From Streptococcus mitis (GTDB lineage: Bacteria > Bacillota > Bacilli > Lactobacillales > Streptococcaceae), in assembly GCF_016658865.1 (NCBI RefSeq), contig NZ_CP067992.1:62001-126000 (forward strand): 64,000 bases of DNA, read 5' to 3'. Positions 6,637 to 28,246 of the stretch are shown here, piece by piece. The first letter of the stretch is position 1; the number at the start of each line of letters is the position of its first letter. A program made the position numbers and the translations under genes. Below the pieces are notes generated by a model. It did no database searches and was not told the origin of the DNA. It worked only from the letters and a program-made list of their open reading frames with translations.

Positions 6637-6662
6637 GAAAAAATTTTTAGGAGGTCATTGTT

Positions 6663-8379: not shown

Positions 8380-8384
8380 GTTTT

Positions 8385-8920: not shown

Positions 8921-8946
8921 GTTAGAGCATTTTATATAGAATATAC

Positions 8947-8975
8947 ATGGGAATGGGGCTTACTCCCATTCCCAT
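8947..8975 (+). other. Strong hairpin in the agaS leader
   Basis: Perfect 11-bp stem ATGGGAATGGG / CCCATTCCCAT with a 7-nt loop, 25 bp before the agaS ATG. No T tract follows, so it is more likely an RNA stabiliser or processing site than a terminator. It would separate agaS expression from the PTS genes. Confidence 0.6.
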
Positions 8976-9000
8976 ATTTAAATAGAAAAAGAGGAACTCA

Positions 9001-10167: not shown

Positions 10168-10271
10168 TACTCTTCGAAAATCAAATTCAAACCACGTCAG
10201 CTTCGCCTTGCCGTACTCAAGTACAGCCTGCGGCTAGCTTTCTAGTTTGCTCTTTGATTTTCATTGAGTAT
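10167..10271. repeat. BOX element (A-C type)
   Basis: A 105-bp element with the mitis-group BOX ends: it begins ATACTCTTCGAAAATC and ends GATTTTCATTGAGTAT, so the tips are inverted repeats (ATACTC/GAGTAT). The boxA core CAAACCACGTCAG and the boxC core CTGCGGCTAGCTTTCTAGTTTG are present and boxB is absent. It starts in the last base of the agaS stop codon. Confidence 0.93.
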
Positions 10272-10320
10272 AAGACAGTATTTATGAATTCTTGATAAGA
10301 GGATTTGTAAATTATCAGAT

Positions 10321-10360
10321 AAACCATAGATTGTCAGTAGGCTTTCTATGGTTTGTTTGC
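10321..10360 (+). terminator. Terminator between agaS and galM
   Basis: Perfect 10-bp stem AAACCATAGA / TCTATGGTTT (10321-10330, 10345-10354), followed by TGTTTGCTT. It should end transcripts from the PTS-agaS side, so galM may have its own promoter or depend on read-through. Confidence 0.75.
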
Positions 10361-10388
10361 TTGAGAGAAATAGTAAAAGGAGAACAGA

Positions 10389-11426: not shown

Positions 11427-11606
11427 AAATTTAGAAATATGATAGGCATTCCAGCAGTTAGGTATCTAATTTTAGGGATGCCTTTTATTATTCCCTTATT
11501 TGTATATCTATCCCTAGAATCTTTTTTAAAATTGGTGTATAATGGGACAAGTTGTATATTTTACTATAAATTAACATACCAATTTAAAAATGTAAAAGAG
11601 GGGAAT

Positions 11607-14600
11607 ATGAATTTCAAAACTAGTGGAGAAGAAAGACAGAATTTCTCGTTAAGAAAATTGTCAGTTGGCCTTGTATCTGTAGCAGTTGCGTGTTTCTTTT
11701 TGATGGGAACTGGCCTACAGACTGTATCTGCCCAAGAATCTCATACCGTTAATTATACTTATGTTTTAGAGTCGGACTTGACTGATGAAGAGAAGGCTCT
11801 CTTGGTTACATCCCTACCACAAGTAGCGGAAGAAACTGATGCGACTTACTATCTGGTTTATCGAGCCAATCAAGTATTGCCCAATACGGGGACCAGCTCT
11901 TCATTAGGGACTGTTGCCTTGGTGGCAGGCCTTAGTTTATTGATTGTAGTAGTTCTTAAGGGACGTGATGGCAAGAGCAAGATTAGTCGATTCTTGTTAG
12001 TAAGCGCTCTAGGCAGTCAGTTGCTGTCTCCAACTGCCCTTGCCTTGACTAGCGAAACACTAGCTGCTTATAACACCCAACTATCGGTTCAGGCAGGAGA
12101 TGCCTTGCCAGCCCCGGTTGATATCCCTGGATATACATACATTGGATATGTGAAAAATAAAGTGACTGATGTTAAGCAATCAGATAAACAGAAGGCGCAT
12201 GACAGCAAGTCTAACTTAGAAAATGTAGATAGCTCAACGATAGAGGAACAACAAGGAGGAACACCTTCTCCTATAGAGCCTCAACTACAAAAAAACAAAG
12301 AAACTGTAGTGCAAGCAAAGGGGAGCCAAGAGCCGGGTCATGAAGGTGCTGCCCTAGTTCAACCCGTTCAACCGACTTATACAGAACCCGTTAGCACCCA
12401 AGGCACACAAGAGTCAGGTCATGAGGGCGATGCCCTAGTTCGACCAGTGCAACCAGCCTACACAGCACCAATCAGTACTCAAGGCACACAAGAGTCAGGT
12501 CATGAGGGCGAGGCTCTAGTTCGACCAGTGCAACCAGCCTACACAGCACCAATCAGTACTCAAGGTACACAAGAGTCAGGTCATGAGGGCGATGCCCTAG
12601 TTCAACCCGTTCAACCGACTTATACAGAACCCGTTAGCACCCAAGGTACACAAGAGCCCGGCCATGAAGGCGAATCCCTAGTCCAACCAGCACAACCTTC
12701 TTACACAGCCCCGTTAGAAGCAAAAGGCACACAAGAGCCCGGTCATGAGGGCGAATCTCTGGTTCAGCCAGCTCAGCCGTCTTATACAGAATCGTTAGAA
12801 GCAAAAGGTACGCAAGAGCCCGGTCATGAGGGCGAATCTCTGGTTCAACCAACTCAACCTTCTTACACAGCCCCGTTAGAAGCAAAAGGTACGCAAGAGC
12901 CCGGTCATGAGGGCGAATCCCTAGTTCAGCCAGAGCCGCCAACTTATACAAGCTCAATCAGTACCCAAGGCACGCAAGGGTCAGGTCATGAAGGAGAATC
13001 TCTGGTTCAACCAGAATTACCGTCTTATACAGATCCAATCAGTACTCAAGGAACACAAGAGCAGGGTCACGAGGGCGAGGCTGCTGTGGCAGAAGCTCTT
13101 CCTGAACTGCCTTTGACAAGTACTCGTCGAACAGTAACGGAAACTATCCCTCACGAAACTGAAGAAATCGAAGATGCGACCATCTTGAAAAATCATCGAG
13201 AAATTGCTCAGGAAGGAAAAGATGGTTTACGGACAATCGAGTTTGAAGATTATCTCGTAAATGGTAAGGTAGAATCTAGCAAGGAAATTTCACGTACAGA
13301 AGTAGAACCAACCAAAGAGATTGTCAAGGTTGGTAGTCTTGTTAAAACCAAACCGACAGTTGAAATTACTAATCTGGTTAAAGATGAGAGCAAAAAAGCA
13401 GTAGCGGTCAACTATCATCTAGATGATCCGACGTCTGCTTTTGTTAAGGCCAAGGCCCAAATTTTTCAAAATGGAACACTGATTAAAGAAGTGGATTTGA
13501 AAGATTTATCCGTTCAGCAAACGATTGATGGTTTGGACTACTATACTCCTTATACAATTAAGACTTACTTGACCTATAATCTAGGCCAATCTGATCAGGA
13601 AAATACAGAAGTATCAACGAAAGATTTTCAATTGGACTATAAGAAAATTGAAATCAAAGATGTGGATGAAGTGGGGCTCTATGGTAAGGAAGATGGTCAC
13701 TACCGTCGTTATCTGAATCTATCAGAAGTACCAAGCGACCTGTCACCTTATTTTGTCAAAGTCAAATCAGATAAGATGAAAGAAATGTTGCTACCAGTTA
13801 GCTCTATTAAGGAAACAGAAGATGGGAAATACAAGGTAACCGTTGCCTTCAATGAACTGGTTCAAGAGAAAGATTCAGCATACAAGGATAACTATAGCTT
13901 CACAGTTGATAAGCAAAAGCTTGCCAAGGACGGTGTCTATACTTCCTTCAAGAAACTGATTGCTGCCATGCAGGGTAATCTTGCTGGAACCTTTAAACTT
14001 GGAGCTGATATGACAGCTGATGAAGTGGCCTTAGCAAAGGGACAAACCAGCTATGTGACAGGCACTTTCACTGGTAATCTTATCGGTGCGAGTGATGGGA
14101 AGCCGTTTGCGATTTATGACCTCAAGACAGCCTTGTTTGATAACTTGACCAAGGCTACTGTGAAAGATATTGACCTTAAAGCAGTAGCGATTAAGAGTCA
14201 AGAAGACACAGCCAGTCTAGCAAAAGTGGCTACTAACAGTCAGATTAGTAATGTAGCTGTAGAAGGTCAATTGACAGGTAGCAAGTCAGTTGCAGGCTTG
14301 GTAGCGAAGGCTCAGGATACAGAAATCACTAATAGTTCCTTTACAGGTAGCATTCAGGCCAAGCATGCGGATGCTTCTCCTTACTATGTGGGAGGTATAG
14401 CAGGGCTCTTATCTGGTACTAAGGCTAAGATTGATAAGGTAGCTGTTGATACAAGTATTTCTAGCAATGCCCGCAACAATGACCAATTTGCTGGAGGTAT
14501 TGTAGGGAAAGTTCAAAGTGGTGCTTTGGTCTCTCATGCACTAGCAAGTGGAACTATCCTCAATACGACAACCTATCCACGTGTCGGAGGTATAGCTGGC

Positions 14601-17426
14601 TCTACATGGCAAAATGGCCGTATCCATCATGTCGTTAGCATGGTTAATACTGGAGATGGTTATGGCATCACAGGAGACCAATATAAGGGAGCGGACATCA
14701 AAGATGCCAGCACTGCTGTTGAGAACAAGAAGGCTGATCTCTATGCGACCCCAATCACCCAAGACCAGGCTAGAGAAAAGGTTCAGTCTTATGGGATGAC
14801 AGTGACACTAGACGATACAGGTCAAACACTAAAGAACAATCAACGAAGTGTGGACTATACTCAGTTAAGTCAAGGCCAAGCTAGTCGAAAAGTTGCTTAT
14901 CACAATATTGAGAAATTGATGCCTTTCTATAACAAAGAGTTAGTGGTTCACTATGGAAATCAAGTCGATCCTACGGATAAGCTCTACACCACAGAACTAC
15001 TGGATGTTGTACCAATGAAGGACAATGACATCATCACAGATATTCAGGCCAATAAAGCAGCAATCAATAAGCTTATGTTGCATTTTGCTGATAATACAAT
15101 CAGCTACTTGGACGTCACTTACAAAGATGACTTCAAAAATACACAAATTGCAGAGTACAGCGTAGCAGGCAAAAACTTTATCTTTACGCCAGAGGCCTTT
15201 CTATCTGATTATACGAAAGTGACCAATCAGGTTCTAGCAGATTTGCAAGGGGTCGAATATGACTCGGCAGCCATGAGAAAAGTCCTTGGTATTGAGGCAG
15301 ATGCTTCACTTGATCCACTATATTTGGATAAAGAATTTGAAAAAGTCAAGGCTAATATCGGTGAACATCTTCGTAAAGTACTAGCCATGGACAAGTCTAT
15401 CAATACGATGGGAGATAGTGTAGCGACCTACATCAGTGAGAAAATCAAGAACAACAAGGAAGCTTTCTTGCTTGGTTTGACCTACCTCAATCGCTGGTAC
15501 AATATCAACTATGATCACATCAATACCAAGGACCTCAATACCTATAAGTTTGACTTTGATGGCAATAGCACAGCCTCAACCCTGGATACCATTATTGCCC
15601 TAGGTCAGAGTGGTATGGAAAATCTCAAGGCATCAAATAATACAAGTGCCTATGAGACAACCTTGGCCGCCGCAAAAGGTCGCAAGACAGTGACGGATTT
15701 ACTAGAGTCTTACAGAAAACTCTTCCTACCAACCAAAACCAATAATGAATGGTTGAAGACAAATACCAAGGCCTATATAGTAGAGAGTAAATCAGCAATT
15801 CCAGAAGTGCGTGCTAAACAAGAGTCAGCTAGAGCGGATAGTAAGTATACGCTGGGAGTTTATGACCGTATTACGGCACCAAGTTGGAAATTAAAAAACA
15901 TGCTCCTACCGTTATTGACATTGCCAGAAGAGGATGTCTATGTGATTTCAAACCTTTCTACCTTGGCCTTTGGTGGCTACGAACGCTACCGTGACCGTGT
16001 CAATAATACAGTCTTGTCAGGAGAAGAACTGCGTCAGTATGTTCGTGCCAAGGTCGATCAGTCGGCTGAATGGCAACGAGACCACTACGATATCTGGTAC
16101 CATCTCCTTTCACCAGAATACAAAGAAAAACTCTTCCGTTCAGTCATGGTTTCAGATGGCTTTGGTATGAAAGATAGCAATAGCAAGTATTACTGGGCTA
16201 CCCTGTCTGATAAGGCCATTGATTCGATTTATAACTTCTTTGGACCAACTGGTAAGTGGTATGGGGAAAGCAAAGGAGCTGGAGCCTATGCCAACGGTTC
16301 AGAGGTCCACTATGTCAGCGACCGCTTGTTGGATAAATACGGAACATCTGTCTATACTCATGAAATGGTTCACAATTCTGACGGACATATTTACTTTGAA
16401 GGGAAAGGTCGTCGTGAAGGATTGGGAGCAGAGTTGTACGCCCTAGGATTGTTACAATCTGCTGACAACCTAGATAAGGATGCTATTGTCTTGAACACCC
16501 TCTATAAAGGGGATAAGGATTCACCAACTCGCTTGCATACTTATGACCCGACAAGCCGCTTTACATCAGCTGCAGCCTTGCAAGAGTATGTTCACGGTAT
16601 GTACGATGTCTTGTACACCTTGGACGCTATGGAAGCCAATGCCATTTTAACTAAGTCAAATGATGTTAAGAAAAAATGGTTTAGAAAAATAGAGAATTTC
16701 TACATTGAGGACAAGTATCATAAACAAACGCATGCAGGAAACTCTGTTCGTCCATTGACAGATGCTGAAGTTAGCAAACTAACCAGTCTCAATGCCTTGA
16801 TTGACAATGATATCATCAACCGTCGGGCTTACCGTGATAAGAGTGACTATACTCGTAATGGCTATCATCTTATCAGTATGTTCTCACCGATTTATGCGGC
16901 CCTCAGCAATCCAAAGGGTGCGCCTGGCGATATCATGTTTAGAAAGACAGCCTACGAATTGTTGGCAGAAAAAGGTTACCAAGATGGCTTCTTACCATAT
17001 GTATCGAATCAATATGCAGAAGAAGCTAAACGCAATGGGGATATTACCTATTCAGATTGGCTCCGAAAAGATGTGGGCCTCATCACTGATAGCCTCGTCT
17101 TGAAAAATGTTTTTGCCAACAAATACGGTTCATGGGCTGATTTCAAGAAGGATATGTTTAATAAACGTATTCGCAAGCAAGACCAGTTGAAACCAATCAC
17201 TATTCAGTATGAACTTGGTGTACCAAACAGCAGCAAGGAGATTACAATTCGTTCAGCTGCTCAAATGCAAGAACTGATCGATCAAGCAGTGGCAAAAGAT
17301 GTGGCTAACATTGACCGTACGACAAGCCACGCTCCTGCAAGTTGGGTCCACTTATTAAAACAAAAAATCTACAATGCCTACCTACGTAGCACAGATGATT
17401 TCAGAGAATCGATTTATAAACAATAA
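11607..17426 (+). CDS. zmpC: ZmpC-type M26 zinc metalloprotease
   Basis: A 1939-residue surface protease of peptidase family M26 (IgA1 protease/ZmpB/ZmpC). The start is ATG 11607 with AGAGGGG upstream; an open frame from 11439 adds 56 codons with no ribosome site. Order of parts: YSIRK-like signal (NFSLRKLSVGLVS); an N-terminal LPNTG at residues 91-95 followed by a membrane segment (anchor placed N-terminally, as in this family); nine 27-residue repeats (239-481); a G5 domain (about 510-580); the M26 N-terminal region with beta-helix-like repeats; and the catalytic domain. The zinc site is His1585-Glu1586-x-x-His1589 with Glu1609. I call it ZmpC rather than ZmpB or Iga from its position after galM; sequence comparison could change that. 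Its only visible -10 is TATAAT at 11538-11543. Confidence 0.85.
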   Translation: MNFKTSGEERQNFSLRKLSVGLVSVAVACFFLMGTGLQTVSAQESHTVNYTYVLESDLTDEEKALLVTSLPQVAEETDATYYLVYRANQVLPNTGTSSSLGTVALVAGLSLLIVVVLKGRDGKSKISRFLLVSALGSQLLSPTALALTSETLAAYNTQLSVQAGDALPAPVDIPGYTYIGYVKNKVTDVKQSDKQKAHDSKSNLENVDSSTIEEQQGGTPSPIEPQLQKNKETVVQAKGSQEPGHEGAALVQPVQPTYTEPVSTQGTQESGHEGDALVRPVQPAYTAPISTQGTQESGHEGEALVRPVQPAYTAPISTQGTQESGHEGDALVQPVQPTYTEPVSTQGTQEPGHEGESLVQPAQPSYTAPLEAKGTQEPGHEGESLVQPAQPSYTESLEAKGTQEPGHEGESLVQPTQPSYTAPLEAKGTQEPGHEGESLVQPEPPTYTSSISTQGTQGSGHEGESLVQPELPSYTDPISTQGTQEQGHEGEAAVAEALPELPLTSTRRTVTETIPHETEEIEDATILKNHREIAQEGKDGLRTIEFEDYLVNGKVESSKEISRTEVEPTKEIVKVGSLVKTKPTVEITNLVKDESKKAVAVNYHLDDPTSAFVKAKAQIFQNGTLIKEVDLKDLSVQQTIDGLDYYTPYTIKTYLTYNLGQSDQENTEVSTKDFQLDYKKIEIKDVDEVGLYGKEDGHYRRYLNLSEVPSDLSPYFVKVKSDKMKEMLLPVSSIKETEDGKYKVTVAFNELVQEKDSAYKDNYSFTVDKQKLAKDGVYTSFKKLIAAMQGNLAGTFKLGADMTADEVALAKGQTSYVTGTFTGNLIGASDGKPFAIYDLKTALFDNLTKATVKDIDLKAVAIKSQEDTASLAKVATNSQISNVAVEGQLTGSKSVAGLVAKAQDTEITNSSFTGSIQAKHADASPYYVGGIAGLLSGTKAKIDKVAVDTSISSNARNNDQFAGGIVGKVQSGALVSHALASGTILNTTTYPRVGGIAGSTWQNGRIHHVVSMVNTGDGYGITGDQYKGADIKDASTAVENKKADLYATPITQDQAREKVQSYGMTVTLDDTGQTLKNNQRSVDYTQLSQGQASRKVAYHNIEKLMPFYNKELVVHYGNQVDPTDKLYTTELLDVVPMKDNDIITDIQANKAAINKLMLHFADNTISYLDVTYKDDFKNTQIAEYSVAGKNFIFTPEAFLSDYTKVTNQVLADLQGVEYDSAAMRKVLGIEADASLDPLYLDKEFEKVKANIGEHLRKVLAMDKSINTMGDSVATYISEKIKNNKEAFLLGLTYLNRWYNINYDHINTKDLNTYKFDFDGNSTASTLDTIIALGQSGMENLKASNNTSAYETTLAAAKGRKTVTDLLESYRKLFLPTKTNNEWLKTNTKAYIVESKSAIPEVRAKQESARADSKYTLGVYDRITAPSWKLKNMLLPLLTLPEEDVYVISNLSTLAFGGYERYRDRVNNTVLSGEELRQYVRAKVDQSAEWQRDHYDIWYHLLSPEYKEKLFRSVMVSDGFGMKDSNSKYYWATLSDKAIDSIYNFFGPTGKWYGESKGAGAYANGSEVHYVSDRLLDKYGTSVYTHEMVHNSDGHIYFEGKGRREGLGAELYALGLLQSADNLDKDAIVLNTLYKGDKDSPTRLHTYDPTSRFTSAAALQEYVHGMYDVLYTLDAMEANAILTKSNDVKKKWFRKIENFYIEDKYHKQTHAGNSVRPLTDAEVSKLTSLNALIDNDIINRRAYRDKSDYTRNGYHLISMFSPIYAALSNPKGAPGDIMFRKTAYELLAEKGYQDGFLPYVSNQYAEEAKRNGDITYSDWLRKDVGLITDSLVLKNVFANKYGSWADFKKDMFNKRIRKQDQLKPITIQYELGVPNSSKEITIRSAAQMQELIDQAVAKDVANIDRTTSHAPASWVHLLKQKIYNAYLRSTDDFRESIYKQ
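12321..13049 (+). repeat. Nine 81-bp in-frame repeats in zmpC
   Basis: Nine consecutive units of exactly 27 codons, consensus GTQEPGHEGESLVQP followed by a variable Pro/Thr/Tyr half, plus a partial tenth unit up to about 13079. Unit variants are interleaved (ESGHEGDALV, EPGHEGESLV), which points to unequal crossing-over. The units form a Glu/Gly/Pro-rich stalk between the membrane anchor and the G5 domain. Confidence 0.9.
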
Positions 17427-17465
17427 GAAAACTCCCCCAAGCTATCCTGTCTAAACCAGTCCACC

Positions 17466-17494
17466 TTGCAGATGGTCAGTCTTTGTGATAGAAT
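17466..17494 (+). promoter_or_regulatory. Promoter in front of the sialylation operon
   Basis: -35 TTGCAG (17466-17471), 17-bp spacer, TGa extended -10 TAGAAT (17489-17494). The predicted start is near 17501. It is one of the better promoters in the window and points towards the short terminated transcript described next. Confidence 0.7.
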
Positions 17495-17500
17495 AGCATA

Positions 17501-17587
17501 AAGTCCTTTTGAGGGGGAACTTGCTAGGAAATCCCCAAGCATTGTAACGGAAAAACCACCCTCGCTTCTTTGTGAGGGTGGTTTTTC
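17501..17587 (+). ncRNA. Candidate small RNA or leader-attenuator
   Basis: A transcript from the promoter at 17466-17494 would run about 87 nt and end at an excellent intrinsic terminator (stem AAAAACCACCCTC / GAGGGTGGTTTTT, 17551-17587), 38 bp before the glycosyltransferase gene. A second stem can pair GGGGA and TCCCC inside it. It also holds a purine-rich GAGGGGG followed by a TTG-started frame of eight codons (17521-17547), which could be a leader peptide. It lacks the TTTAAG repeats of CiaR-driven csRNA promoters. The hairpin also serves as the terminator of zmpC. Small RNA and attenuator readings cannot be told apart here. Confidence 0.5.
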
Positions 17588-17625
17588 CTTTGTAAGTAGA
17601 AAATAAGAGAGAAAGAGTCTACATC

Positions 17626-18957
17626 ATGTCGAGAATTGTCACCATTCATCCAGCCAAGGAAATCCATCGCTATGGTTTTGAGAGTACCCAAGTCTATCGA
17701 GCCCGTATAGCACGATATCTGGGTTTGGAATATGTTCACCTTGTATCGAGCCCTCAGCTTCGTCCTGATTGGAAGAAAGATTTAATCAAGTTAGGATTTT
17801 TAGAAAAAGAACTGATATGTGTTCCGCATAGTTTTTCAGATATAGGCCATGCAGACTTATCAGTGAAGCCAGAAAGTCTGACACTATCAGCTGGAGATCA
17901 GGTTGAGCTCAATGAGGATGGTTTTGTGGCCTCTGTTACCCTAGGAGATGGCTCGGGGAGATATTACTATACCAAAGGTCCTTTCTTATTTGAAGATTTC
18001 AAGGAGAAGGAACTTCGTTGGTATCATGAAAATGGAGAACTGGCCCTTGAAGGACGCTTTATCGATCCCTTTAAAGAACCCTCTCCTGTAACCATCTTTT
18101 ACCCAGAATACATCTACCGCATAGGAGGAGAGATCCGTTCTGAAGAGGACTTGCTGGTTAAATTCTTAGCCAGATGGGCCCAGCAAACCGACCTCTTCAT
18201 CCGTGACCAACAAATCGTACCCAAGCCTAGCCTCTGGCGTTATATGGAAAACACGGACAAAAATTACTATGAAGTCATCCATGAAAATGTCATGCGAGAC
18301 TTACGCCTCGCCAATCTGCGCAAGACAAACAAATACTTGGTTGCCAGTGAAGTGTTGACTGATACTTTGGCGAAACAAGGGTATGATACCAAGTTTTTAC
18401 CACCAATGTTTACAGAAAAATTAGGTCAGCTAAGAAAAATCGGACCAGTTTTGGACTATTGCTTGGTGGGTCATATGGGAGAAGGTAAGAACGTTGAACT
18501 TGTCATTGAAGCTTTTATCGAACTCTACAAACGTGGCTCCAAGGCCCAGATTACCTTTTATGGTGGTACAGAGGAGCGTCTGGAGGAACTTCGTAATCGC
18601 TACGATCTGCCACCAACCATTCACTTTAAAGGTATCGTTGACGAAGTACCTTATCATCTCCACCAATGCTATTTGTCTGCAAGTTATACAGAGTTATTTG
18701 CCAATGCCTGTATTGAAGCCTTGAGTCAAGGTTTGTTAGCCTTGTTATCTGATGTGGAGATTGCCCATCGTTTTTATGCTGGCCAGTCCAATGCCATCAA
18801 CTTGTTTAAAACCAAATCAGAGTTGATTCAAAAGATAGAAGAGATGGAACAGCCTGATTTTTATCTATCGAATGAAAAAAATCTAGCTTTAGCCTCTCGC
18901 TATTCTCTGGAAAAAGTAGCTCACATATACAGAGAACTATTAGATAGGAACTTCTAG
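17626..18957 (+). CDS. GT-B glycosyltransferase, GtfA/TarM-like
   Basis: A 443-residue glycosyltransferase of the GT4 type. The C-terminal half has GHMGEGKNVELVIEAF (about residue 285), a nucleotide-sugar loop with GGTEERLEEL, and the E-x7-E signature ELFANACIE (about residue 352). The N-terminal half (GFESTQVYRARIARYLG, then LGFLEKELICVPHSFSDI and WYHENGELALEG) resembles GtfA of serine-rich-repeat protein glycosylation and TarM of wall teichoic acid, which carry an inserted acceptor-binding beta-sheet domain. The acceptor here is unknown. It is the first gene of a four-gene operon; the next start lies one base after its stop. No signal peptide is visible, so it acts in the cytoplasm. Confidence 0.75.
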   Translation: MSRIVTIHPAKEIHRYGFESTQVYRARIARYLGLEYVHLVSSPQLRPDWKKDLIKLGFLEKELICVPHSFSDIGHADLSVKPESLTLSAGDQVELNEDGFVASVTLGDGSGRYYYTKGPFLFEDFKEKELRWYHENGELALEGRFIDPFKEPSPVTIFYPEYIYRIGGEIRSEEDLLVKFLARWAQQTDLFIRDQQIVPKPSLWRYMENTDKNYYEVIHENVMRDLRLANLRKTNKYLVASEVLTDTLAKQGYDTKFLPPMFTEKLGQLRKIGPVLDYCLVGHMGEGKNVELVIEAFIELYKRGSKAQITFYGGTEERLEELRNRYDLPPTIHFKGIVDEVPYHLHQCYLSASYTELFANACIEALSQGLLALLSDVEIAHRFYAGQSNAINLFKTKSELIQKIEEMEQPDFYLSNEKNLALASRYSLEKVAHIYRELLDRNF

Positions 18958-18958
18958 G

Positions 18959-20314
18959 ATGTTGGGAATTCTAGTCACCCTATTGCTTTATTTTGGCTTG
19001 ATTTCCTGAATTGCCTATCGGAAAAAAGGGAGCGAAGAGGATTACTATCAGGTTAAGAAAGCTGTTCCAGTGACAGTTTTGGCCTTCTCAGTCTTTGCGA
19101 CCTTGCTCAGTCCCATTTCCTTTTTGACTCTGGTGGGGAATGCCTATACAGGCAGGCCCTATCTCTGGTTTGCTCAGTGTGGCATCTTTCTAGCCATTCC
19201 GCTGGCCCATCGCTACTTTTTGCCCCTCTATCAACAGGGAAACTACGAGACAGCCTATCATCTGTTAGAGGATAAGTTTCAATCGGCTGGCATTCGTTCA
19301 CTGGCTTCAGGACTTTTCATCCTCTACCAGTTGGGGCGAATAGCAGTGGTGACCTACTTGTTGTCTCAGGCCTTAGAGCCCTTTATCCCCATCAATCAGC
19401 TGGTCTTGTCAGCTTTACTTCTTCTCTTGACGGTCTATTATCTGGCAAGGGGTGGTCTCTTGGTTGTGCTGTGGACGGACTTCTTTCAGGGTTTGGTCCT
19501 GCTAGCTATACTAGCCCTCTTTCTACCGAGAATTGCCCAATCTGGCTTAGTCATGAATAGCAGTCAGCAACTCTCTCACTTTGCAGAGAAACTGGATGGG
19601 CAGACGGTCTTGATCCTAGTTGTAGGAGCAGGTTTTAGTAGCTTGTTTTCCTACGTTTCCTCGCAGGATATCGTCCAACGTTTTAATAGCAAAATGGGGC
19701 GTCAGAAGATTGGAAAAATCTTATGGCTACAGGGACTTTTGTCCTTTGGGATTGCCAGTTTGCTGTATCTGATTGGCTGCTTGATTCGTCAGGAAAATTT
19801 CGCTACCACATCGACCAATCCTGTTCTCATCGCTTACGCTCGGGAAGGTCTGGCACCTTGGTTTGGTAGTTTCATCATGCTGGCTCTCTTGGCAGCAGGC
19901 CAATCCACAGTTTCATCCAGTATGAATGCAATCGTGACCTGCTTGAAGTTGGATTTTGCTTGGACAAAGATTCGCTGGTCGCCAAGCCTCCTATCCTTTG
20001 CCTTAGCAGGCTTGTCCTGGCTCCTCTGCCTCTTACTCATGAATGCAGAAATCTACTCCATCTACGAATGGATTAACGGCTTTATGGGCCTGACACTAGG
20101 TGCGATAGGTGGTTTGTACCTCTTGGTCTTGCTCCTCAAAAGACCGAGTTTGTATCTAGCTAAAATCTATCTGGTCATTAGTCTAGGAGCCTTGGTTCTT
20201 TATCATTACAGTGGACTCTTTGCCAACCCCAATCCTTGGTTAAATAGCATTATCGCCCCCCTATCTGCCCTTTTTATCTCAATTCTAGGAAGACTATATG
20301 AAAGAAACATCTAA
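18959..20314 (+). pseudogene. Sodium:solute symporter broken by an in-frame TGA
   Basis: Read through, this frame is 451 residues of an SSS-family transporter with about 12-13 hydrophobic segments; FSYVSSQDIVQRFNSK and QSTVSSSMNAIVTC are typical SSS motifs. The ATG at 18959 has AGGA upstream and overlaps the operon logic (one base after the previous stop). Codon 17 is TGA (19007-19009) in the context FGLIS-stop-IAYRKKGSEEDYY, where relatives would most simply have TGG (Trp). The frame continues cleanly to 20314. A restart at GTG 19070 would lose the first helix. SSS members near sialic acid genes usually import sialic acid, which is my inference for the ancestral substrate. Sequencing error is possible. 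Confidence 0.8.
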
Positions 20315-21002
20315 ACCCATAGCCGTCATTTTGATCCGTTCGGGTTCACGCGGCTTGGTGGATAAAAATATCAAACCGCTTGCAGGCAAACCCTTGGTTT
20401 TCTATACCATAGAAGTCGCTCTAGCCTCCAAGCTATTTAGTGATATCTGGGTTTCCTCAGACTCATTAGCCTATTTAGAACTCTGTCGTCAAGCCTATCC
20501 AGAGATTCGTTGTGTCCACAGATCAAAAGAATTGGCCTTGGCAACAACCTCTAGCTTAGAAACCTTACGCGACTTTTTACAGCCCTTTGAGGAAGAGCAA
20601 GTCTTTGTCAATCTACAGGTGACTTCACCTCTTAGAGAGGTAGAGCACCTCATCGAATCCTATCAACTTTACTGTCAGTCTGGCGCCGACCATTTGATTT
20701 CCTGTGTTAAGGCGGACAAGAGTCGTAGTCTTTACTTGCAGTTTGCGGAGTCGTCATTTATCCATCCCCCTCAAGTTTCCAAGCACTATGCCCGGCAGAA
20801 AGAACCTGTCTATTACTATCCCAACGGTAGTATTTGGATTTCTCGCAAGGACCTTTACCTACGAGATGAGACCTTTTACACGGATAAGACAGTAGCCTAT
20901 GAAATGCCCAAACTCTATTCTTATGATATCGACGATGCCTTGGACTTTGAAGTCGTTGAGACCTTGCTTCACCATCACCACCTAGGAGAATCAAAGAGAT
21001 GA
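20298..21002 (+). CDS. CMP-N-acylneuraminate cytidylyltransferase-like (NeuA-like)
   Basis: A 234-residue nucleotidyltransferase. The N-terminus AVILIRSGSRGLVDKNIKPL is the CTP-binding P-loop-like motif of CMP-sialate synthetases, followed by GKPLVFYTIEVALAS, SSDSLAYLELC, and LQVTSPLRE near residue 103. The C-terminal YDIDDALDFEVVE fits the metal-binding Asp region. It is close to the short NeuA form (about 230 residues) and lacks the C-terminal hydrolase domain of the longer enzymes. It starts 17 bases inside the symporter frame and overlaps the next gene by ATGA, so expression is coupled. Expected reaction: CTP + sialic acid gives CMP-sialic acid. A related 8- or 9-carbon sugar acid is possible. 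Confidence 0.85.
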   Translation: MKETSKPIAVILIRSGSRGLVDKNIKPLAGKPLVFYTIEVALASKLFSDIWVSSDSLAYLELCRQAYPEIRCVHRSKELALATTSSLETLRDFLQPFEEEQVFVNLQVTSPLREVEHLIESYQLYCQSGADHLISCVKADKSRSLYLQFAESSFIHPPQVSKHYARQKEPVYYYPNGSIWISRKDLYLRDETFYTDKTVAYEMPKLYSYDIDDALDFEVVETLLHHHHLGESKR

Positions 21003-21877
21003 AACACCTCATCATTGCCACAACGCCCTTGCAGGCTAAAATAGCTCAGCATATAAAGAGCCTCTATCCTAATCAGGACTTTGTTAGCCTTTATGTCAGT
21101 CCTGTCAAAAATGCCCGACAGGAGCATTATGCCAAGGATTTTGACCATGTTCACTATCCTCAGACGGCAGAGGACTTGGCTCAGATTTGTCAGGAGCTGG
21201 CTGGCGACTATGACACCATTTTTTATGCTAGTTTTGATAATAGCTTGATTCTGGACTTGATTGCTAGTTCAAACTACCGGCACCTCATGAGTTTCGATGA
21301 TGGCTATGCGGATATTTATCCCTTGGGTATGTATGCTTGGCCTCTTCAGCCCAGTCAGGTGGGCTCTTTAGGCTTGACCAGAGATGACTTGATTGAGCGA
21401 ACGGAAAAGCACTATACCCTCTATCGCAGTGACTACCATGTCGTGGCTAGAGAAAAGCTAGTCTATCTGGAGCATTTTTTTGACCTGCCTCAAGCGCCTG
21501 TATCAAATGGTAAGACGGTCAAGGTTTTGCTGGGGCAAAAGTTCTCTGAAGAAGACGATCAGATCTCCATCCGCTTTATCAGTACCTATGCCAAGGCCTT
21601 GGCCATTGACCTCTATCTACCCCATCCCAAGGAAACCTTCACTATCCCTGATGTGACCTACTTGGAGACGGAGCTGATCTTTGAAGATGTCCTAGCCCAA
21701 CTCTTTCAAGAATACGAGTTCGTTCATGTCTATCATTTTACTTCATCGGTCAGCCTCCACTTGAAAGACCTGACCCATGTGACCATTACAGGTATTTCTC
21801 TCCCCTACTATGAGGACCGTCAAAAAGAATTGCGACGCTTAGGTTGTCAGTTTGAAAGGGTTTCACTTGGCTGGTAG
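20999..21877 (+). CDS. GT52-family sialyltransferase-like protein
   Basis: A 292-residue protein resembling glycosyltransferase family 52 (CpsK of group B Streptococcus, Lst of Neisseria), which transfers sialic acid from CMP-sialic acid to a terminal galactose. The N-terminus KHLIIATTPLQAKIAQHI fits the first beta-strand. LMSFDDGYADIYPLG near residue 95 corresponds to the family FDDG motif. The C-terminal VYHFTSSVSLHL matches the conserved Ser-Ser region. It is the last gene of the operon, overlapping NeuA by four bases, and is followed by a terminator. The linkage and acceptor are not readable. Confidence 0.75.
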   Translation: MKHLIIATTPLQAKIAQHIKSLYPNQDFVSLYVSPVKNARQEHYAKDFDHVHYPQTAEDLAQICQELAGDYDTIFYASFDNSLILDLIASSNYRHLMSFDDGYADIYPLGMYAWPLQPSQVGSLGLTRDDLIERTEKHYTLYRSDYHVVAREKLVYLEHFFDLPQAPVSNGKTVKVLLGQKFSEEDDQISIRFISTYAKALAIDLYLPHPKETFTIPDVTYLETELIFEDVLAQLFQEYEFVHVYHFTSSVSLHLKDLTHVTITGISLPYYEDRQKELRRLGCQFERVSLGW

Positions 21878-21902
21878 CATAAATGTATATTTTAAAATAT
21901 GT

Positions 21903-21928
21903 AAATCCATACGCTATATGGATTTTTT
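21903..21928 (+). terminator. Terminator of the sialylation operon
   Basis: Perfect 8-bp stem AAATCCAT / ATGGATTT with a 7-nt loop, followed by more T. It lies 26 bp after the last stop of the operon. Confidence 0.8.
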
Positions 21929-21955
21929 ATATATAAATATAGCAAAAAACTATAG

Positions 21956-22028
21956 TTTGAATGATCAAAAAGTATTCAAATTCCTTGTATAAGAGGTTTT
22001 AAAGTGTTAAAATTAAGTGTCTAATTTT
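21956..22028. promoter_or_regulatory. Two inverted repeats upstream of the MucBP adhesin gene
   Basis: TTTGAAT-(11)-ATTCAAA at 21956-21980 and AAAATTA-agtgtc-TAATTTT at 22009-22028, both perfect 7-bp arms in AT-rich DNA. They lie within the leader or promoter region of the gene that starts at 22103. They are candidate operators, but such repeats are common by chance in AT-rich sequence. I see no clear -35/-10 pair. Confidence 0.3.
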
Positions 22029-22102
22029 GAAGTTTTCAAGCAAGTATTAGCATAATAACAGCTTAAAAATAAAAATTATACAATAAAAAAAGGATGATGA
22101 AG

Positions 22103-25100
22103 ATGTTTATAAATAAAAAAGAAAAATTTTCCATTCGTAAGTTTAAAGACGGTCGTTCAGACTCAGTCAAAATCGGTACAGTCGGTCTGATTGTCGGTGC
22201 AGCCCTTGCAATGGCAGGACAACCCCATATTGCAGAAGCAGCGATGACAGAAAACAGCGACAACACAACAACGATCTCAAATGATAAGGGGTCAGTAATT
22301 GTAGATACAGCTAATATTGAGAACCCAGATGCAGGTAGGGCATTTTCAACTGATCCAACTGCAGAGGGAACAAATACAATTACTAAAACTGGAAAAGTAG
22401 ACTACAAATATGTAACTGCTGAGGGTAATACTGTATTAGAAGAAAACAAAAACCAAAACTCTGGTGCTGATAAAACTATCGAAACACCATACGATGTATA
22501 CGGTAAATCAGGAGAAGTTTTCAAAGGAACTACAGGTGGTGATGCAGAAGCTAGCGACCTAAACGACGCTAAAGAAAATGGTAAGAAAGAAACAATCGAA
22601 AAAGATGGGAAGACTTACCACCTAATCGGAGAACCTAAGGTTGAAACTACTGGAAACGGTGGAGGAGTGTACTCTGACACAACTCTAGGTGATGTAACTG
22701 CGAAATTGACTCCAGAAGGGTTAAGTAACGCAGAAGGTAAAATCACTTATGATACTGTAAAACCTGGTGGAAAAGCTTGGATTGTTGAACAAACAGGAAA
22801 AGGAACATATGGTAAATATGTACAAGCTGATTCAGGTGCAATCACTTCTGATGCTAAGATGATAGAAGCTTTCAAAGCTGGAGAAGCAACAGCAAAAAAC
22901 TTCAATTCAGCGAACGTAACGGCTGATGGAGGAATCAAAGAAGGAGATTATGTTTTCGTCCTTGAGAAAAATACCTATGTAACAGCTAAAACTGAGAGTT
23001 TCTCTTTAACAGCACAGATACAATTGTCATCTAGTGATAATGTAGCAGATGATAAAGATGGAACTGGTGCTACTTTAAATAGAACATATGCAATGGTACA
23101 AAACTTTAAAGCGGCTCCAGATACTTTAACAGGAGAAGCAAACAAAACTCTTGTAAAAAGCTATCTTGCATATCTTCAAGAAAAAGGATTTGAAGATAAC
23201 CTCCTTAATTTCAAACGATATATTACTTTAGGAATGGCGGCAAAAACTGGTGGTCCTCTGGAGATTAGTGCTGATAAGGGAGATCAAGTTGATGATAAAG
23301 GAAGACCTACAAGTGATATAACAGCTGATATAGCAAGCGTTACTGATCAAGAAACAAGTACTTTAGAAGATAGTAGTGATTTTCTTCTTAAATTTTCTGA
23401 TCCTTCGCCGGAAGTTGAAGAGTATTCTTACCGTGACGAAATCACTCCTCTTCGTGCATACCGTTTAGCAAGTGGTACTACAACAATCACTTACACTTAT
23501 GCAGAAGAAAAAACTCGTGAAATCGAGAAAAAAGGTTCTGTAGTCGTTAACTACCAAACAGAAGACGGAACAGAATTAAAATCTCCTTACACTGATACTC
23601 CTGAAACAGTAGCTGAAGTAGTAACTGAGAAATACTATGTTGATGCTGATGGAAATGATGTAATTGTAAGTAGTACTACAGCTTCTAAAAACGTACCTTA
23701 CAACACTAAAGAAAATGAAACTGAAAAACCTCAAAAACTTACAGATGCACAAGGAAATGTTTACTACCTAAACGAAGCAAACACAATGACATCTGTAAAT
23801 GGTACAGAAACTACATCACCAGCTGAAACAGGAACAGTAGTAGAAGGTGTTACAAAAGTAACTTACATCTATGAAAAAGCTGGATCAGTAATCGTTAACT
23901 ACAAAACTGAAGATGGAACTCCACTTGCAGGAACAGTAGTAGACGAAGATGGAGCTGGTAAAACTGTAGAATCAGGTGCAAAAGACATTGATAATGGTAA
24001 ACCAGGTACAGCTTATAACACTGCCGATAACGGAATGAAACCAACTCGTATTAAAACTGCAGAAGGCAAAGTATACGAATTAGTTCCAGACTTAACTGAA
24101 GGTGAAGAAACAGGTGAGGTTGAATCAGGAACAACTAAAGAAGTAACCTACGTTTACAAAGAAGTTAAAGGTAATGTTGTCGTTAAGTATGAAGATACTG
24201 AAGGTAACACACTTGCTGATGACGAAAAAGATGAAACAGATGCTTCTCTAAATGTTAAATACGATACAGCTGACCACAAAAAAGAATCTATCGAGAAAGA
24301 TGGTGTTAAATATTACTTAACAGCTAAAGAACTGAAAGATGGTTCTAAACCAGCTACTGGAGACGTAGTAGAAGGAACAACTACAGTAACTTACGTTTAC
24401 GAAAAAGCTGGATCAGTAATCGTTAACTACCAAACAGAAGACGGAACTCCATTAACAGGTACTGCAGACGGTACAGATATTGCTTCGGGTGCTAAAGACA
24501 CTACAGACGCTAAAGCAGGAACTGACTACAACACTGCAGACAACGGAATGAAACCAAACCGTATTACAACTGCAGAAGGTAAAGTATACGAATTAGTACC
24601 AACAGCAACTAAAGGTGATGAAACTGGTAAAGTTGTTGCAGGTGAAACGAAAGAAGTAACCTACGTTTATAAAGAAGTAAAAGGTAATGTTGTCGTTAAG
24701 TATGAAGATACTGAAGGTAACGTAATCGCAGAAGACGAAAAAGACGAAACAGATGCTTCTCTAAACGTTAAATACGACACAGCAGACCACAAAAAAGCTG
24801 AAATCACCAAAGACGGTGTTAAATACTACCTAACAGCTAAAGAATTGAAAGATGATTCTAAACCAGCTACTGGAGATGTTGTTGAAGGTACAACTACAGT
24901 AACTTATGTTTATGAAAAAGCTGGACAAGTAGTCGTTAACTATCAAACAGAAGATGGAACTCCATTAGTAGGTGTTGACCCAGCTGGTGCAAATGTAGCT
25001 TCAGGTGCTAAAGACACTGTAGATGGAAAACCAGGATCAGATTATGATACTTCTGATAACGGAATGAAACCAGCTCGTATCACAACTGCAGAAGGCAAAG

Positions 25101-28100
25101 TATACGAATTAGTACCAACAGCAACTAAAGGTGAAGAAACTGGTAAAGTTGTTGCTGGAGAAACTAAAGAAGTAACATACGTTTATAAAGAAGTAACTGG
25201 TGATGTAGTAGTTCACTATGTTGACACAGAAGGTAACAAAATCGCAGCTGATAAAGACGACCTTAAAGGTGCATCTCTAAGCGAAAAATATGATACTGCT
25301 GTTGATAACAAACCAGAAAAAATCACTGCAGAAGACGGAACTGTATACTACATTACAAAAGCTGGTCTTAAAGATGATTCTAAACCAGAAACTGGAAACG
25401 TAGTTGAAGGTAAAACTGATGTAACTTACGTTTATGAAAAAGCTGGATCAGTAATCGTTAATTACCAAACAGAAGACGGAACTCCATTAGTAGGAACTGC
25501 AGACGGTAAAGATATTGCTTCAGGTGCTAAAGATACTGACAATGGAAAACCAGGTTCTGAATACAACACTGCAGATAACGGAATGAAACCAACTCGTATC
25601 ACAACTGCAGAAGGAAAAGTATACGAACTAGTCCCAGCATCAACTAAAGGTGATGAAACAGGTACTGTAGAATCAGGTCAAACTAAAGAAGTAACATACG
25701 TTTATAAAGAAGTAAAAGGTAATGTAGTAGTTCACTATACAGATGAGGCAGGAAATAAAATTGCTGAAGATGCTAAAGATACAACAGATGGATCAATTAG
25801 CACACCATATGATACTTCTGATAACGGAATGAAACCAGAACGTATTACGACTCCAGAAGGCAAAGTCTACGAATTGGTACCAGCATCAACTAAAGGTGCT
25901 GAAACTGGTAAGGTTACTGAAGGAACTACAGAAGTAACCTATGTTTATAAAGAAGTAACTGGAGATGTAGTCGTTCACTATGTTGATACAGAAGGTAACA
26001 TCATTGCTGAAGATAAAGAAGATACTAAAGGTGCTTCTCTAAACGCTAAATACGACACAACTGACAACAAACCAGAGAAAATCGAAAAAGACGGAACTGT
26101 TTACTACTTAACAGAAAAAGCTCTTAAAGATGACTCTAAACCAGAAAACGGAGACGTAGTAGAAGGTAAAACTGAAGTAACTTACGTTTACGAAAAAGCA
26201 GGACAAGTAGTCGTTCACTACACAGATGAGAAAGGTAACACTATTCAAGTAGATGCTGTTGATACAAAAGACGGTAAACCAAACGCTGACTACAACACTG
26301 CTGATAACGGAATGAAACCAAACCGTATCACTACTCCAGAAGGAAAAGTATACGAATTAATCCCTCAATCAACTAAAGGTGATGAAACAGGTAAAGTTAA
26401 AGCTGGAGAAACTACAGAAGTAACTTATGTCTACAAAGAAATCACTGGTAATGTAGTCGTTCACTATGTTGATACAGAAGGAAACACATTAGCTGACGAT
26501 ACGAAAGATGTAGAAAATGGATCACTAAGTGAGAAATATGATACAACTGACAACAAACCAGCTAAACTTGAAAAAGATGGAACTGTATACTACTTAACAG
26601 CTAAAGAATTGAAAGACGGTTCTAAGCCAGAAAACGGTGCTGTTGTAGAAGGAACTACAGAAATCACTTATGTATACGAAAAAGCAGGAAACGTTCTTGT
26701 TCATTACGTAGACGAAGCTGGAAACACTCTTCAAGCAGATGCTGTTGATACTAAAGACGGTAAACCAGGAGCTAAATACGATACTTCTGATAAGGACATG
26801 AAACCAGCTCGTATCACAACTCCAGAAGGTAAAGTATACGAATTAGTACCAGCATCAACTAAAGGTAACGAAGCTGGTGATGTTGAAGCAGGTAAGACTA
26901 CAGAAGTGACTTATGTTTACAAAGAAATCACTGGTAATGTAGTCGTTCACTACACTGATGAAGCGGGTAACACAATCGCTGAAGATGTTAAAGATACGAT
27001 TGACGGATCAGTAAGCTCAGCATACGACACAAGTGACAACAAACCAGCTACAATCACTACAAAAGATGGTAAAGTATATGTACTTGTACCAACTTCAACT
27101 AAGGGTGAAGAGTTTGGTAAAGTAACAGAAGGGACAGTAGAAGTAACCTACGTTTATAAAGAAGTAACTGGTGATGTAGTGGTTCACTACGTTGATACAG
27201 AAGGTAACGTAATCGCTGACGATAAAGAAGATACAAAAGGTGCTTCTCTAAACGCCAAATACGATACAACTGACAACAAACCAGCAACAATCGAAAAAGA
27301 TGGTGTTAAATACTACTTAACAGAAAAAGCTGTTAAAGACGATTCTAAACCTGAAACAGGAGATGTAGTAGAAGGTAAAACTGAAGTAACTTACGTTTAC
27401 GAAAAAGCAGGACAAGTAGTAGTTCACTATGTAGACGAAGCTGGAAACACAATCCAAACTGACGCTGTTGATACAAAAGACGGTAAACCAGGAGCTGCGT
27501 ACAACACTACTGATAACGATATGAAACCAACTCGTATTACAACTCCAGAAGGAAAAGTATACGAATTAGTCCCAGCATCAACTAAAGGTAACGAAAACGG
27601 AAGTGTTGAAGCAGGTAAAACAACAGAAGTAACATATGTGTACAAAGAAGTAAAAGGAAACGTCGTCGTTCATTATGTAGACGAAGCGGGTAACACAATC
27701 GCAGAAGACGTTAAAGATACTACAGACGGATCAGTAAGCTCAGCATATGACACAACTGACAACAAACCAGCTACAATCACTACGAAAGATGGAAAACTAT
27801 ACGTATTAGTACCAACTTCAACTAAAGGTGATGAAAATGGTAAAGTAACAGAAGGAACAACAGAAGTAACTTACGTTTATAAAGAAGTCAAAGAAGGTAC
27901 TACAAATGGAGGCTCACTCACTCCATCTCAACCAGGTTCTCCATCAACACCTTCAACAAACCCAACAAGTCCGGTGAAACCGACAGACCCAAGTCAACCA
28001 ACAACACCGGTTGCTCCGGCTAATCCAACTAACCCAACAACACCGGCTAACCCAGCAACTCCAACGATGCCATCAGCACCAGTAAATGGTAAAGCACCAC

Positions 28101-28246
28101 AAGCTCCAGCAGCTTCATCAGAAGCTAAAGGACAAGCTGAACTTCCTAATACTGGTACAGAAGACCATGCTAGCCTAGCAGCACTTGGACTTTTAGGTGT
28201 CTTGAGCGGATTTGGGCTTGTTGCTCGTAAGAAAAAAGAAGACTAA
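22103..28246 (+). CDS. Giant MucBP-repeat LPXTG surface protein
   Basis: A 2047-residue cell-wall-anchored protein. I chose ATG 22103 (MFINKKEKFSIRKF) because AAGGA lies 8 bp before it; the ATG at 22094 abuts that site. Residues 1-49 are a YSIRK-like signal peptide. Residues about 50-477 form a unique N-terminal region, probably the adhesin head. Seventeen MucBP-type repeats of about 85 residues follow (478 to about 1930), alternating units that begin VIVNYQTEDGTPL or VVHYVDTEGN and end TYVYKE. A Pro/Thr/Ser-rich wall segment leads to LPNTG, a membrane helix and RKKKED. MucBP modules in lactobacilli and Listeria bind mucins or other glycans; binding here is inferred. The last codons and the terminator are shared with the next giant gene. 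Confidence 0.88.
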   Translation: MFINKKEKFSIRKFKDGRSDSVKIGTVGLIVGAALAMAGQPHIAEAAMTENSDNTTTISNDKGSVIVDTANIENPDAGRAFSTDPTAEGTNTITKTGKVDYKYVTAEGNTVLEENKNQNSGADKTIETPYDVYGKSGEVFKGTTGGDAEASDLNDAKENGKKETIEKDGKTYHLIGEPKVETTGNGGGVYSDTTLGDVTAKLTPEGLSNAEGKITYDTVKPGGKAWIVEQTGKGTYGKYVQADSGAITSDAKMIEAFKAGEATAKNFNSANVTADGGIKEGDYVFVLEKNTYVTAKTESFSLTAQIQLSSSDNVADDKDGTGATLNRTYAMVQNFKAAPDTLTGEANKTLVKSYLAYLQEKGFEDNLLNFKRYITLGMAAKTGGPLEISADKGDQVDDKGRPTSDITADIASVTDQETSTLEDSSDFLLKFSDPSPEVEEYSYRDEITPLRAYRLASGTTTITYTYAEEKTREIEKKGSVVVNYQTEDGTELKSPYTDTPETVAEVVTEKYYVDADGNDVIVSSTTASKNVPYNTKENETEKPQKLTDAQGNVYYLNEANTMTSVNGTETTSPAETGTVVEGVTKVTYIYEKAGSVIVNYKTEDGTPLAGTVVDEDGAGKTVESGAKDIDNGKPGTAYNTADNGMKPTRIKTAEGKVYELVPDLTEGEETGEVESGTTKEVTYVYKEVKGNVVVKYEDTEGNTLADDEKDETDASLNVKYDTADHKKESIEKDGVKYYLTAKELKDGSKPATGDVVEGTTTVTYVYEKAGSVIVNYQTEDGTPLTGTADGTDIASGAKDTTDAKAGTDYNTADNGMKPNRITTAEGKVYELVPTATKGDETGKVVAGETKEVTYVYKEVKGNVVVKYEDTEGNVIAEDEKDETDASLNVKYDTADHKKAEITKDGVKYYLTAKELKDDSKPATGDVVEGTTTVTYVYEKAGQVVVNYQTEDGTPLVGVDPAGANVASGAKDTVDGKPGSDYDTSDNGMKPARITTAEGKVYELVPTATKGEETGKVVAGETKEVTYVYKEVTGDVVVHYVDTEGNKIAADKDDLKGASLSEKYDTAVDNKPEKITAEDGTVYYITKAGLKDDSKPETGNVVEGKTDVTYVYEKAGSVIVNYQTEDGTPLVGTADGKDIASGAKDTDNGKPGSEYNTADNGMKPTRITTAEGKVYELVPASTKGDETGTVESGQTKEVTYVYKEVKGNVVVHYTDEAGNKIAEDAKDTTDGSISTPYDTSDNGMKPERITTPEGKVYELVPASTKGAETGKVTEGTTEVTYVYKEVTGDVVVHYVDTEGNIIAEDKEDTKGASLNAKYDTTDNKPEKIEKDGTVYYLTEKALKDDSKPENGDVVEGKTEVTYVYEKAGQVVVHYTDEKGNTIQVDAVDTKDGKPNADYNTADNGMKPNRITTPEGKVYELIPQSTKGDETGKVKAGETTEVTYVYKEITGNVVVHYVDTEGNTLADDTKDVENGSLSEKYDTTDNKPAKLEKDGTVYYLTAKELKDGSKPENGAVVEGTTEITYVYEKAGNVLVHYVDEAGNTLQADAVDTKDGKPGAKYDTSDKDMKPARITTPEGKVYELVPASTKGNEAGDVEAGKTTEVTYVYKEITGNVVVHYTDEAGNTIAEDVKDTIDGSVSSAYDTSDNKPATITTKDGKVYVLVPTSTKGEEFGKVTEGTVEVTYVYKEVTGDVVVHYVDTEGNVIADDKEDTKGASLNAKYDTTDNKPATIEKDGVKYYLTEKAVKDDSKPETGDVVEGKTEVTYVYEKAGQVVVHYVDEAGNTIQTDAVDTKDGKPGAAYNTTDNDMKPTRITTPEGKVYELVPASTKGNENGSVEAGKTTEVTYVYKEVKGNVVVHYVDEAGNTIAEDVKDTTDGSVSSAYDTTDNKPATITTKDGKLYVLVPTSTKGDENGKVTEGTTEVTYVYKEVKEGTTNGGSLTPSQPGSPSTPSTNPTSPVKPTDPSQPTTPVAPANPTNPTTPANPATPTMPSAPVNGKAPQAPAASSEAKGQAELPNTGTEDHASLAALGLLGVLSGFGLVARKKKED
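23534..27893 (+). repeat. Seventeen MucBP-like repeats
   Basis: In-frame units averaging 256 bp. Each begins with a G-x-V-x-V-x-Y motif and closes with VTYVYK or ITYVYE. Units fall into at least two alternating types, an NYQTEDGTPL type followed by a KYEDTEGN or HYVDTEGN type, which suggests duplication of two-unit blocks. Late units are closer to each other than early ones. Confidence 0.85.

Follow-up and report, generated by a model that had tools for sequence, protein, structure and literature searches.

Glycosyltransferases encoded beside the adhesins that they modify are known from Staphylococcus, where SdgA and SdgB are GT-B enzymes with a DUF1975 insert (PMC3794999 and PMC8561734). Their genes adjoin the sdr genes, the enzymes glycosylate the SD-repeat adhesins, and deletion of the enzymes was reported to expose the adhesins to proteolysis (PMC3794999). 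Further related systems are GtfA/GtfB of the serine-rich repeat (SRR)/accessory Sec loci and the neuBCDA capsule loci of streptococci. Here we describe a four-gene locus next to an adhesin gene in a stretch of 64,000 nucleotides of Streptococcus mitis (contig NZ_CP067992.1, positions 62,001 to 126,000; hereafter the window), which encodes a GtfA/SdgB-like glycosyltransferase (GT1), an interrupted symporter, a NeuA-like CMP-sialate synthetase and a GT52 sialyltransferase-like enzyme, and which we regard as somewhat more probably than otherwise a cassette dedicated to sialylation of that adhesin.

Streptococcal surface adhesins have been reported to carry sialic acid, namely PilA (PMC4583379) and Srr1 (review PMC12355684) of Streptococcus agalactiae. 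The Discussion of the PilA study names, as a characterised sialyltransferase, only the capsule enzyme CpsK and mentions a glycosyltransferase cluster near the pilus locus (PMC4583379). The relevant sections of these two sources name no sialyltransferase dedicated to the adhesins, whereas the cassette described here carries its own GT52 and synthetase. AsaA (PMC7846122) is likewise a YSIRK adhesin linked to sialic acid, with orthologues in Gemella and Granulicatella, but it binds sialic acid by Siglec-like domains and has DUF1542 repeats; the window adhesin was rejected as AsaA because its repeats differ.

Compared with SdgA/SdgB, which add N-acetylglucosamine (GlcNAc) only, the S. mitis locus would add sialic acid by NeuA plus GT52 to a proposed MucBP acceptor. 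Unlike the GtfA/GtfB loci, it has neither a GtfB partner nor an SRR protein and carries GT52 instead; no secA2, secY2 or asp genes or SRR protein were recognised among the window open reading frames (ORFs) that were scanned, which were not all of them, and SecA2 was not searched for in the rest of the genome. It shares NeuA and GT52 in one locus with the neuBCDA capsule loci, but these carry NeuB, and the stretches of them that were viewed lack both an adhesin and a homologue of GT1. Judged from the starts of their ORFs, the neuBCDA-type loci also contain flippase and capsule genes. No description of this cassette was found in titles and abstracts of the open-licence literature, the coverage of which was incomplete. 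Judged by gene content, what appears new relative to the SdgB/GtfA kind is the cassette's own GT52 and synthetase, the lack of NeuB and the MucBP neighbour.

Organization of the locus

The four genes and the adhesin gene are arranged as follows:

17626..18957, + strand: GT1, a glycosyltransferase like GtfA, SdgB and TarM, proposed to start the O-glycosylation of the adhesin (Glycos_transf_1)
18959..20314, + strand: frame of an SSS-family, sialic acid transporter-like symporter, interrupted by TGA at 19007-19009 (Pfam SSF; PDB 5nv9)
20298..21002, + strand: NeuA-like CMP-sialate synthetase (CTP_transf_3 above the Pfam cut-off)
20999..21877, + strand: GT52 enzyme resembling sialyltransferases, proposed to add the sialic acid cap (Pfam GT52 72.6 bits against a cut-off of 26.1)
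22094..28246, + strand: adhesin of 2,050 aa with MucBP and LPXTG, proposed acceptor (FSIRK, 14 MucBP stretches, LPNTG anchor)

The order GT1, symporter, NeuA, GT52 on the forward strand within 17626-21877 was verified. An initial annotation of the window had described a 1-bp gap between GT1 (end 18957) and the symporter frame (start 18959), overlaps of 17 bases between symporter and NeuA (20298-20314) and of 4 bases between NeuA and GT52 (20999-21002), the four families and a broken symporter. All of these were borne out, the families by matches to Glycos_transf_1, SSF, CTP_transf_3 and Glyco_transf_52, each above the Pfam cut-off, and the break by the single in-frame TGA. The operon start placed at 17466 was wrong as a gene start, since the first coding sequence begins with ATG at 17626 and 17466-17494 is promoter-like. 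The four-gene observation is confirmed, and it is not due to chance because the family matches span the whole proteins and GT52 is at least 90% identical in 8 of 284 Streptococcus genomes, this one included.

Linkage of GT52, GT1 and adhesin genes

A search of the 284 Streptococcus genomes with the window GT52 gave 12 matching genomes with 15 GT52 places, each of which was viewed in the surrounding 18-20 kb (the window's own place within the window). A GT1 homologue adjoins GT52 at all 15 places, and a repetitive adhesin-like surface protein at 14; at the 15th (G226) the contig ends and the N-terminus of the adhesin lies at the edge of another contig. The GT52 proteins fall into class A (90-97% identical to that of the window), class B (25-28%, longer, fused to GT2 in the two that were scanned, L069 and L075) and class C (26%, with NeuA at the end of the cassette), and the classes sit in different neighbourhoods. 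By our reading of the flanking ORFs, the linkage of GT52, GT1 and adhesin recurs in about seven neighbourhoods, including those in Gemella and Granulicatella. The order is GT1-GT52-adhesin in Gemella haemolysans, whereas in Granulicatella elegans two cassettes (B and A) flank one symporter and one NeuA-like gene, the latter 27-30% identical to the window NeuA. The surface proteins of classes A and B have a common N-terminal domain and most have MucBP or Muc_B2 repeats, although the one beside the cassette of G090 gave no MucBP match; those of class C have only MucBP in common, and their LPXTG motif is not C-terminal. The longer class B GT52 is found at L069, L070, L075, L076 and L139, and dTDP-sugar genes and a GT11-like gene adjoin it in G088 and Granulicatella. 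The glycan of the adhesin may differ by locus.

GT52 does not always go with an adhesin, which is a result against a simple rule. The Pfam GT52 model detected 10 positive genomes among 395 sampled from the order. Five (G000, G088, G202, G227 and G573, the last a Granulicatella) have the adhesin-type GT52 and five do not, namely G001, G009, G043 and G052, not detected by the protein search, and, from another genus, G422. In the 14-20 kb around the GT52 of these latter five there was a NeuB or NeuB-like ORF, NeuA in the four stretches reaching that far, and neither a GT1 homologue nor an adhesin. There are thus two distinct kinds of GT52 locus, an adhesin type and a capsule type. The complete one-contig genome (2,033,396 bases) gave no NeuB match, which agrees with the lack of sialic acid biosynthesis genes noted in the initial annotation, and none of the 12 genomes with a match to the window GT52 gave one either, although NeuA and NanE were matched in all 12. 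As a control, NeuB was present in 13 of 15 other NeuA-bearing genomes of the genus (28 genomes with a NeuA match minus the 12 and G137, a weak fragment). The window GT52 was therefore rejected as part of a capsule locus, there being no NeuB in the genome and the capsule-type GT52 loci looking different; the earlier statement that no capsule locus is involved holds insofar as there is no capsule-type neu locus here and no NeuB match in the GT52-matching relatives. Because NeuB is absent from this genome and from all 12, the sialic acid is likely host-derived and scavenged, with the symporter and an ATP-binding cassette (ABC) importer as two possible entries.

GT1 relatives that lack GT52 show the same association. 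Six such loci were taken from the GT1 matches, five stronger and one weaker and thus not at random, and five of them directly adjoin a protein with MucBP domains. These five (L154-L158, in five Streptococcus genomes) have GT1 relatives 40-42% identical to the class C GT1. At the sixth (L159 of G189, 6237-14904) a 371-aa glycosyltransferase adjoins an LPXTG protein, the MucBP scan having been limited to the other five, and another LPXTG protein lies one ORF further on the other side.

Rearranged loci in two genomes separate the parts of the cassette. G090 has a broken class A GT1; its GT52 is followed by a different GT1 (41-42% identical), which adjoins a different adhesin (N-terminal identity 32%), while its GT52 and NeuA retain 96% identity to those of the window. 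At the zmpC-side site of G047, GT52 is lost, GT1 is reduced to a fragment and the adhesin to a remnant, with the symporter and NeuA open; a class B GT52-GT1-adhesin cassette lies elsewhere in that genome. Both cases fit a model in which GT1 performs the adhesin-specific step and the donor is supplied in common by NeuA and the symporter. Over 10 loci the identity of GT1 correlated with that of the adhesin (0.60) and that of GT52 did not (-0.08), but on retesting the GT1 signal rested mainly on G090 and reversed in the smallest subset, which weakened this support, and we give it little weight. At L077 (G226) and L080 (G228), zmpC is followed by a GT1 fragment and then a surface protein of 2,563 or 2,704 aa, likely what is left of the cassette at its other location.

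GT1 and the candidate acceptor

In a profile search, GT1 matched GtfA (1.5e-22) and SdgB (6e-11), and TarM was not listed up to E 10. When folds were compared (VIA-align), more than 400 residues were aligned only with GtfA, TarM and SdgB among the best 50 entries. The predicted model has beta strands at residues 92-172, fitting a GT-B fold with a DUF1975-type beta insert. Judged by the modelled fold TarM is thus tied with the adhesin glycosyltransferases, whereas by sequence GtfA and SdgB are nearest, and we propose that GT1 is a GtfA/SdgB-type glycosyltransferase serving the adhesin-specific step. Outside the window, this genome has a second GtfA-like ORF (L153, 7361-8863, 500 aa) adjoining a 436-aa ORF.

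The adjoining adhesin has an FSIRK motif in its signal, a linker rich in Ser, Thr and Pro (12.5, 17.5 and 25% of 80 residues) and repeats with 14% Thr. Its N-terminal domain was matched in 12 of the 284 genomes at E 0.001. Matches below 1e-20 occurred at 12 places in nine genomes, all at GT52-GT1 cassettes or at the G226 contig edge, and the remaining three were weak. The model of this domain had a mean predicted local distance difference test score of 59, and its profile gave nothing convincing against the PDB. MucBP-type proteins of S. mitis, SmdA-E, were associated with host FUT2 secretor status in a 2026 study (PMC12979206).

The best surviving alternative, which we nevertheless consider unlikely, is that the sialic acid goes onto a glycolipid or onto a wall or lipoteichoic acid, with GT1 as a TarM-like polymer glycosyltransferase and the adhesin a mere neighbour in a variable island of surface genes. 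The fold tie with TarM, which adds GlcNAc to wall teichoic acid (PMC3794999), and the richness of the window in surface-protein genes are in its favour, but the absence of TarM from a profile search in which GtfA and SdgB ranked high and the recurrent adhesin or MucBP neighbours at both GT52 places and GT1-only loci argue against it. Since adhesin-like proteins accompany GT1 and GT52 from one neighbourhood to another and the closest enzymes to GT1 by sequence are adhesin glycosyltransferases, the adjacent adhesin is favoured as the acceptor and is more likely than not the protein modified. The initial annotation had left the choice between teichoic acid and a surface protein; the latter, in the form of the adjacent MucBP/YSIRK adhesin, is now the better supported, and teichoic acid is less favoured.

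NeuA and GT52

NeuA matched the CMP-Neu5Ac synthetases 6ifd, 1eyr and 1qwj at 2e-21 to 4e-20. Its Q107, R166, N176, D210 and D212 align with Q104, R165, N175, D209 and D211 of the meningococcal enzyme (1eyr; numbering taken from the alignment), residues of its active site. The window NeuA is nearer to the NeuA of three NeuB-bearing genomes (41-44% identity) than to E. coli KdsB (17%). A tree of NeuA was poorly resolved, with 5 of 22 inner branches well supported and a very long KdsB branch. GT52 matched the alpha-2,3-sialyltransferase structures 2yk4-2yk7, with E values of 3e-11 for the single sequence and 1e-30 for the profile, and the profile match to 2yk7 covers positions 3-265 of 292 with the HP and SL motifs aligned. 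These comparisons support NeuA as a putative CMP-sialate synthetase and GT52 as sialyltransferase-like, so that the pairing of the two proposed in the initial annotation fits characterised sialic acid enzymes. The locus is, on these family assignments, likely a module for sialic acid transfer.

It is quite improbable that the cassette acts on the adhesin with another donor, either because NeuA makes a different CMP-nonulosonate or because GT52 transfers a hexose and NeuA has another function. The GT52 family includes alpha-glucosyltransferases too, and the top NCBIfam match of NeuA was PseF (98.7 bits, below the cut-off of 205.7). This match does not discriminate, however, since three capsule-type NeuA controls scored 110-122 bits on the same model, likewise below the cut-off, and NeuA was rejected as a pseudaminate enzyme on that ground; its closeness to the NeuA of NeuB-bearing genomes also opposes another donor. 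We also know of no way to make a nonulosonate without a NeuB-family synthase, for which no match was obtained here, and the free nonulosonate available in a host is sialic acid.

Symporter and possible entry of sialic acid

Past the TGA the symporter frame stays open to 20314, and the first listed start is GTG at 19070. The part downstream of the stop has PDB 5nv9, listed as a putative sodium:solute symporter, as its nearest structure (1.3e-31); we take this entry to be SiaT. Relatives at 34-37% identity adjoin NanE and an N-acetylneuraminate lyase (NanA) homologue in G099. The survey for intact versions found uninterrupted 451-aa copies in four other genomes, and of the nine genomes that carry this type of NeuA, four have an open symporter, three an interrupted one and two none. 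The position of the window TGA corresponds, in the G227 copy, to part of the first hydrophobic segment (residues 1-22). The Granulicatella symporter (L139, 13009-14187) has 392 aa and apparently lacks the first membrane segment present in its Streptococcus counterpart, so the shortened window frame is not necessarily dead. The genes near NanE in this genome encode two permeases and a substrate-binding protein of the ABC type, none of which reaches its NCBIfam cut-off, as well as a ROK kinase and a homologue of N-acetylneuraminate lyase (214.5 bits against a cut-off of 281); from its gene position, this putative importer possibly carries sialic acid as a second route. The symporter is thus SiaT-like, as the initial annotation had it, but does not appear essential to the module. 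That the module is decaying and idle in this strain, its genes persisting by inertia after the symporter was interrupted, is the least probable explanation and a very doubtful one, because GT1, NeuA and GT52 are full length here, identity to the seven other class A streptococci is 93-96% for NeuA and 90-97% for GT52, and the importer offers another possible entry, even though symporters are broken or missing in relatives, GT1 is broken in G090 and GT1 remnants occur in G047, G226 and G228.

Leader, base composition and surroundings

Two elements upstream of GT1 were found by eye:

17466..17494, + strand: putative promoter-like element TTGCAG-17-TAGAAT with extended -10, kept in relatives sharing the site
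17551..17586, + strand: terminator-like hairpin in the leader, between the promoter-like element and GT1, kept in relatives

The leader (17466-17625) has about 130 bases from the promoter-like element to GT1, with the hairpin plus a T-run, and is also kept in G202, where the upstream zmpC gene is absent. Neither element was among the sites of a separate computational scan, and the leader matched no Rfam family at or above the gathering score. It may represent an attenuator or else a small RNA.

The G+C content of the 1-kb bins in 19001-22000 is 47.6, 44.5 and 42.9%, compared with 36-39% in 22001-28000 and about 42% in 17001-19000. The G+C content at third codon positions is 52% in the symporter, 47% in NeuA and 52% in GT52, 41% in GT1 and 19.5% in the adhesin. 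The enrichment at 19-21.8 kb that had been noticed by eye is therefore real, and the raised values in the symporter, NeuA and GT52 together with the very low value in the adhesin suggest that the locus is a mosaic. A local G+C peak of 50.3% with an AT skew of 0.28 lies at 12001-13000, within the repetitive stretch of a ZmpC-like M26 protease gene. Five YSIRK surface proteins had been counted in the window; four fit the search motif, and the fifth (45715) reads WSIRR and is only YSIRK-like.

Proposed mechanism and significance

The dedicated cassette is proposed from the enzyme families, the linkage and the absence of NeuB, all read from sequence, and from these we infer an acceptor, sugars and their linkage, order of steps, export and benefit. 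In the cytoplasm, GT1 would put a first sugar, GlcNAc or another N-acetylhexosamine, on Ser/Thr of the adjacent MucBP/YSIRK adhesin. Host sialic acid would be imported via the symporter where intact, or by another importer, NeuA would activate it to CMP-Neu5Ac, and GT52 would cap the first sugar with it. The glycosylated adhesin would then leave the cytoplasm through the ordinary Sec pathway and be anchored by sortase, and the benefit may be host mimicry or shielding from proteases or from self-binding. Such host mimicry is likely, and it would have counterparts in related bacteria. The initial interpretation is partly supported as a whole, its surface sialylation as host mimicry being narrowed to the capping of one adhesin rather than the whole surface. 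More tentatively, and with rather less than even confidence, the cassette may give the cell a mucin-like surface of its own: a mobile cassette common to Streptococcus, Gemella and Granulicatella would furnish a mucin-binding adhesin with a two-sugar sialylated O-glycan, possibly sialyl-Tn-like, from host mucin sialic acid, so that the adhesin both binds and resembles mucin.

If the proposal is true, these bacteria would attach host sialic acid to a single adhesin, and would do so independently of any capsule. This would give a testable basis for commensals showing self-like glycans to Siglecs, and a basis for protease resistance or for keeping a mucin-binding protein off the cell's own surface. 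It would also extend to sialic acid the SdgB/GtfA principle of a glycosyltransferase encoded beside its adhesin.

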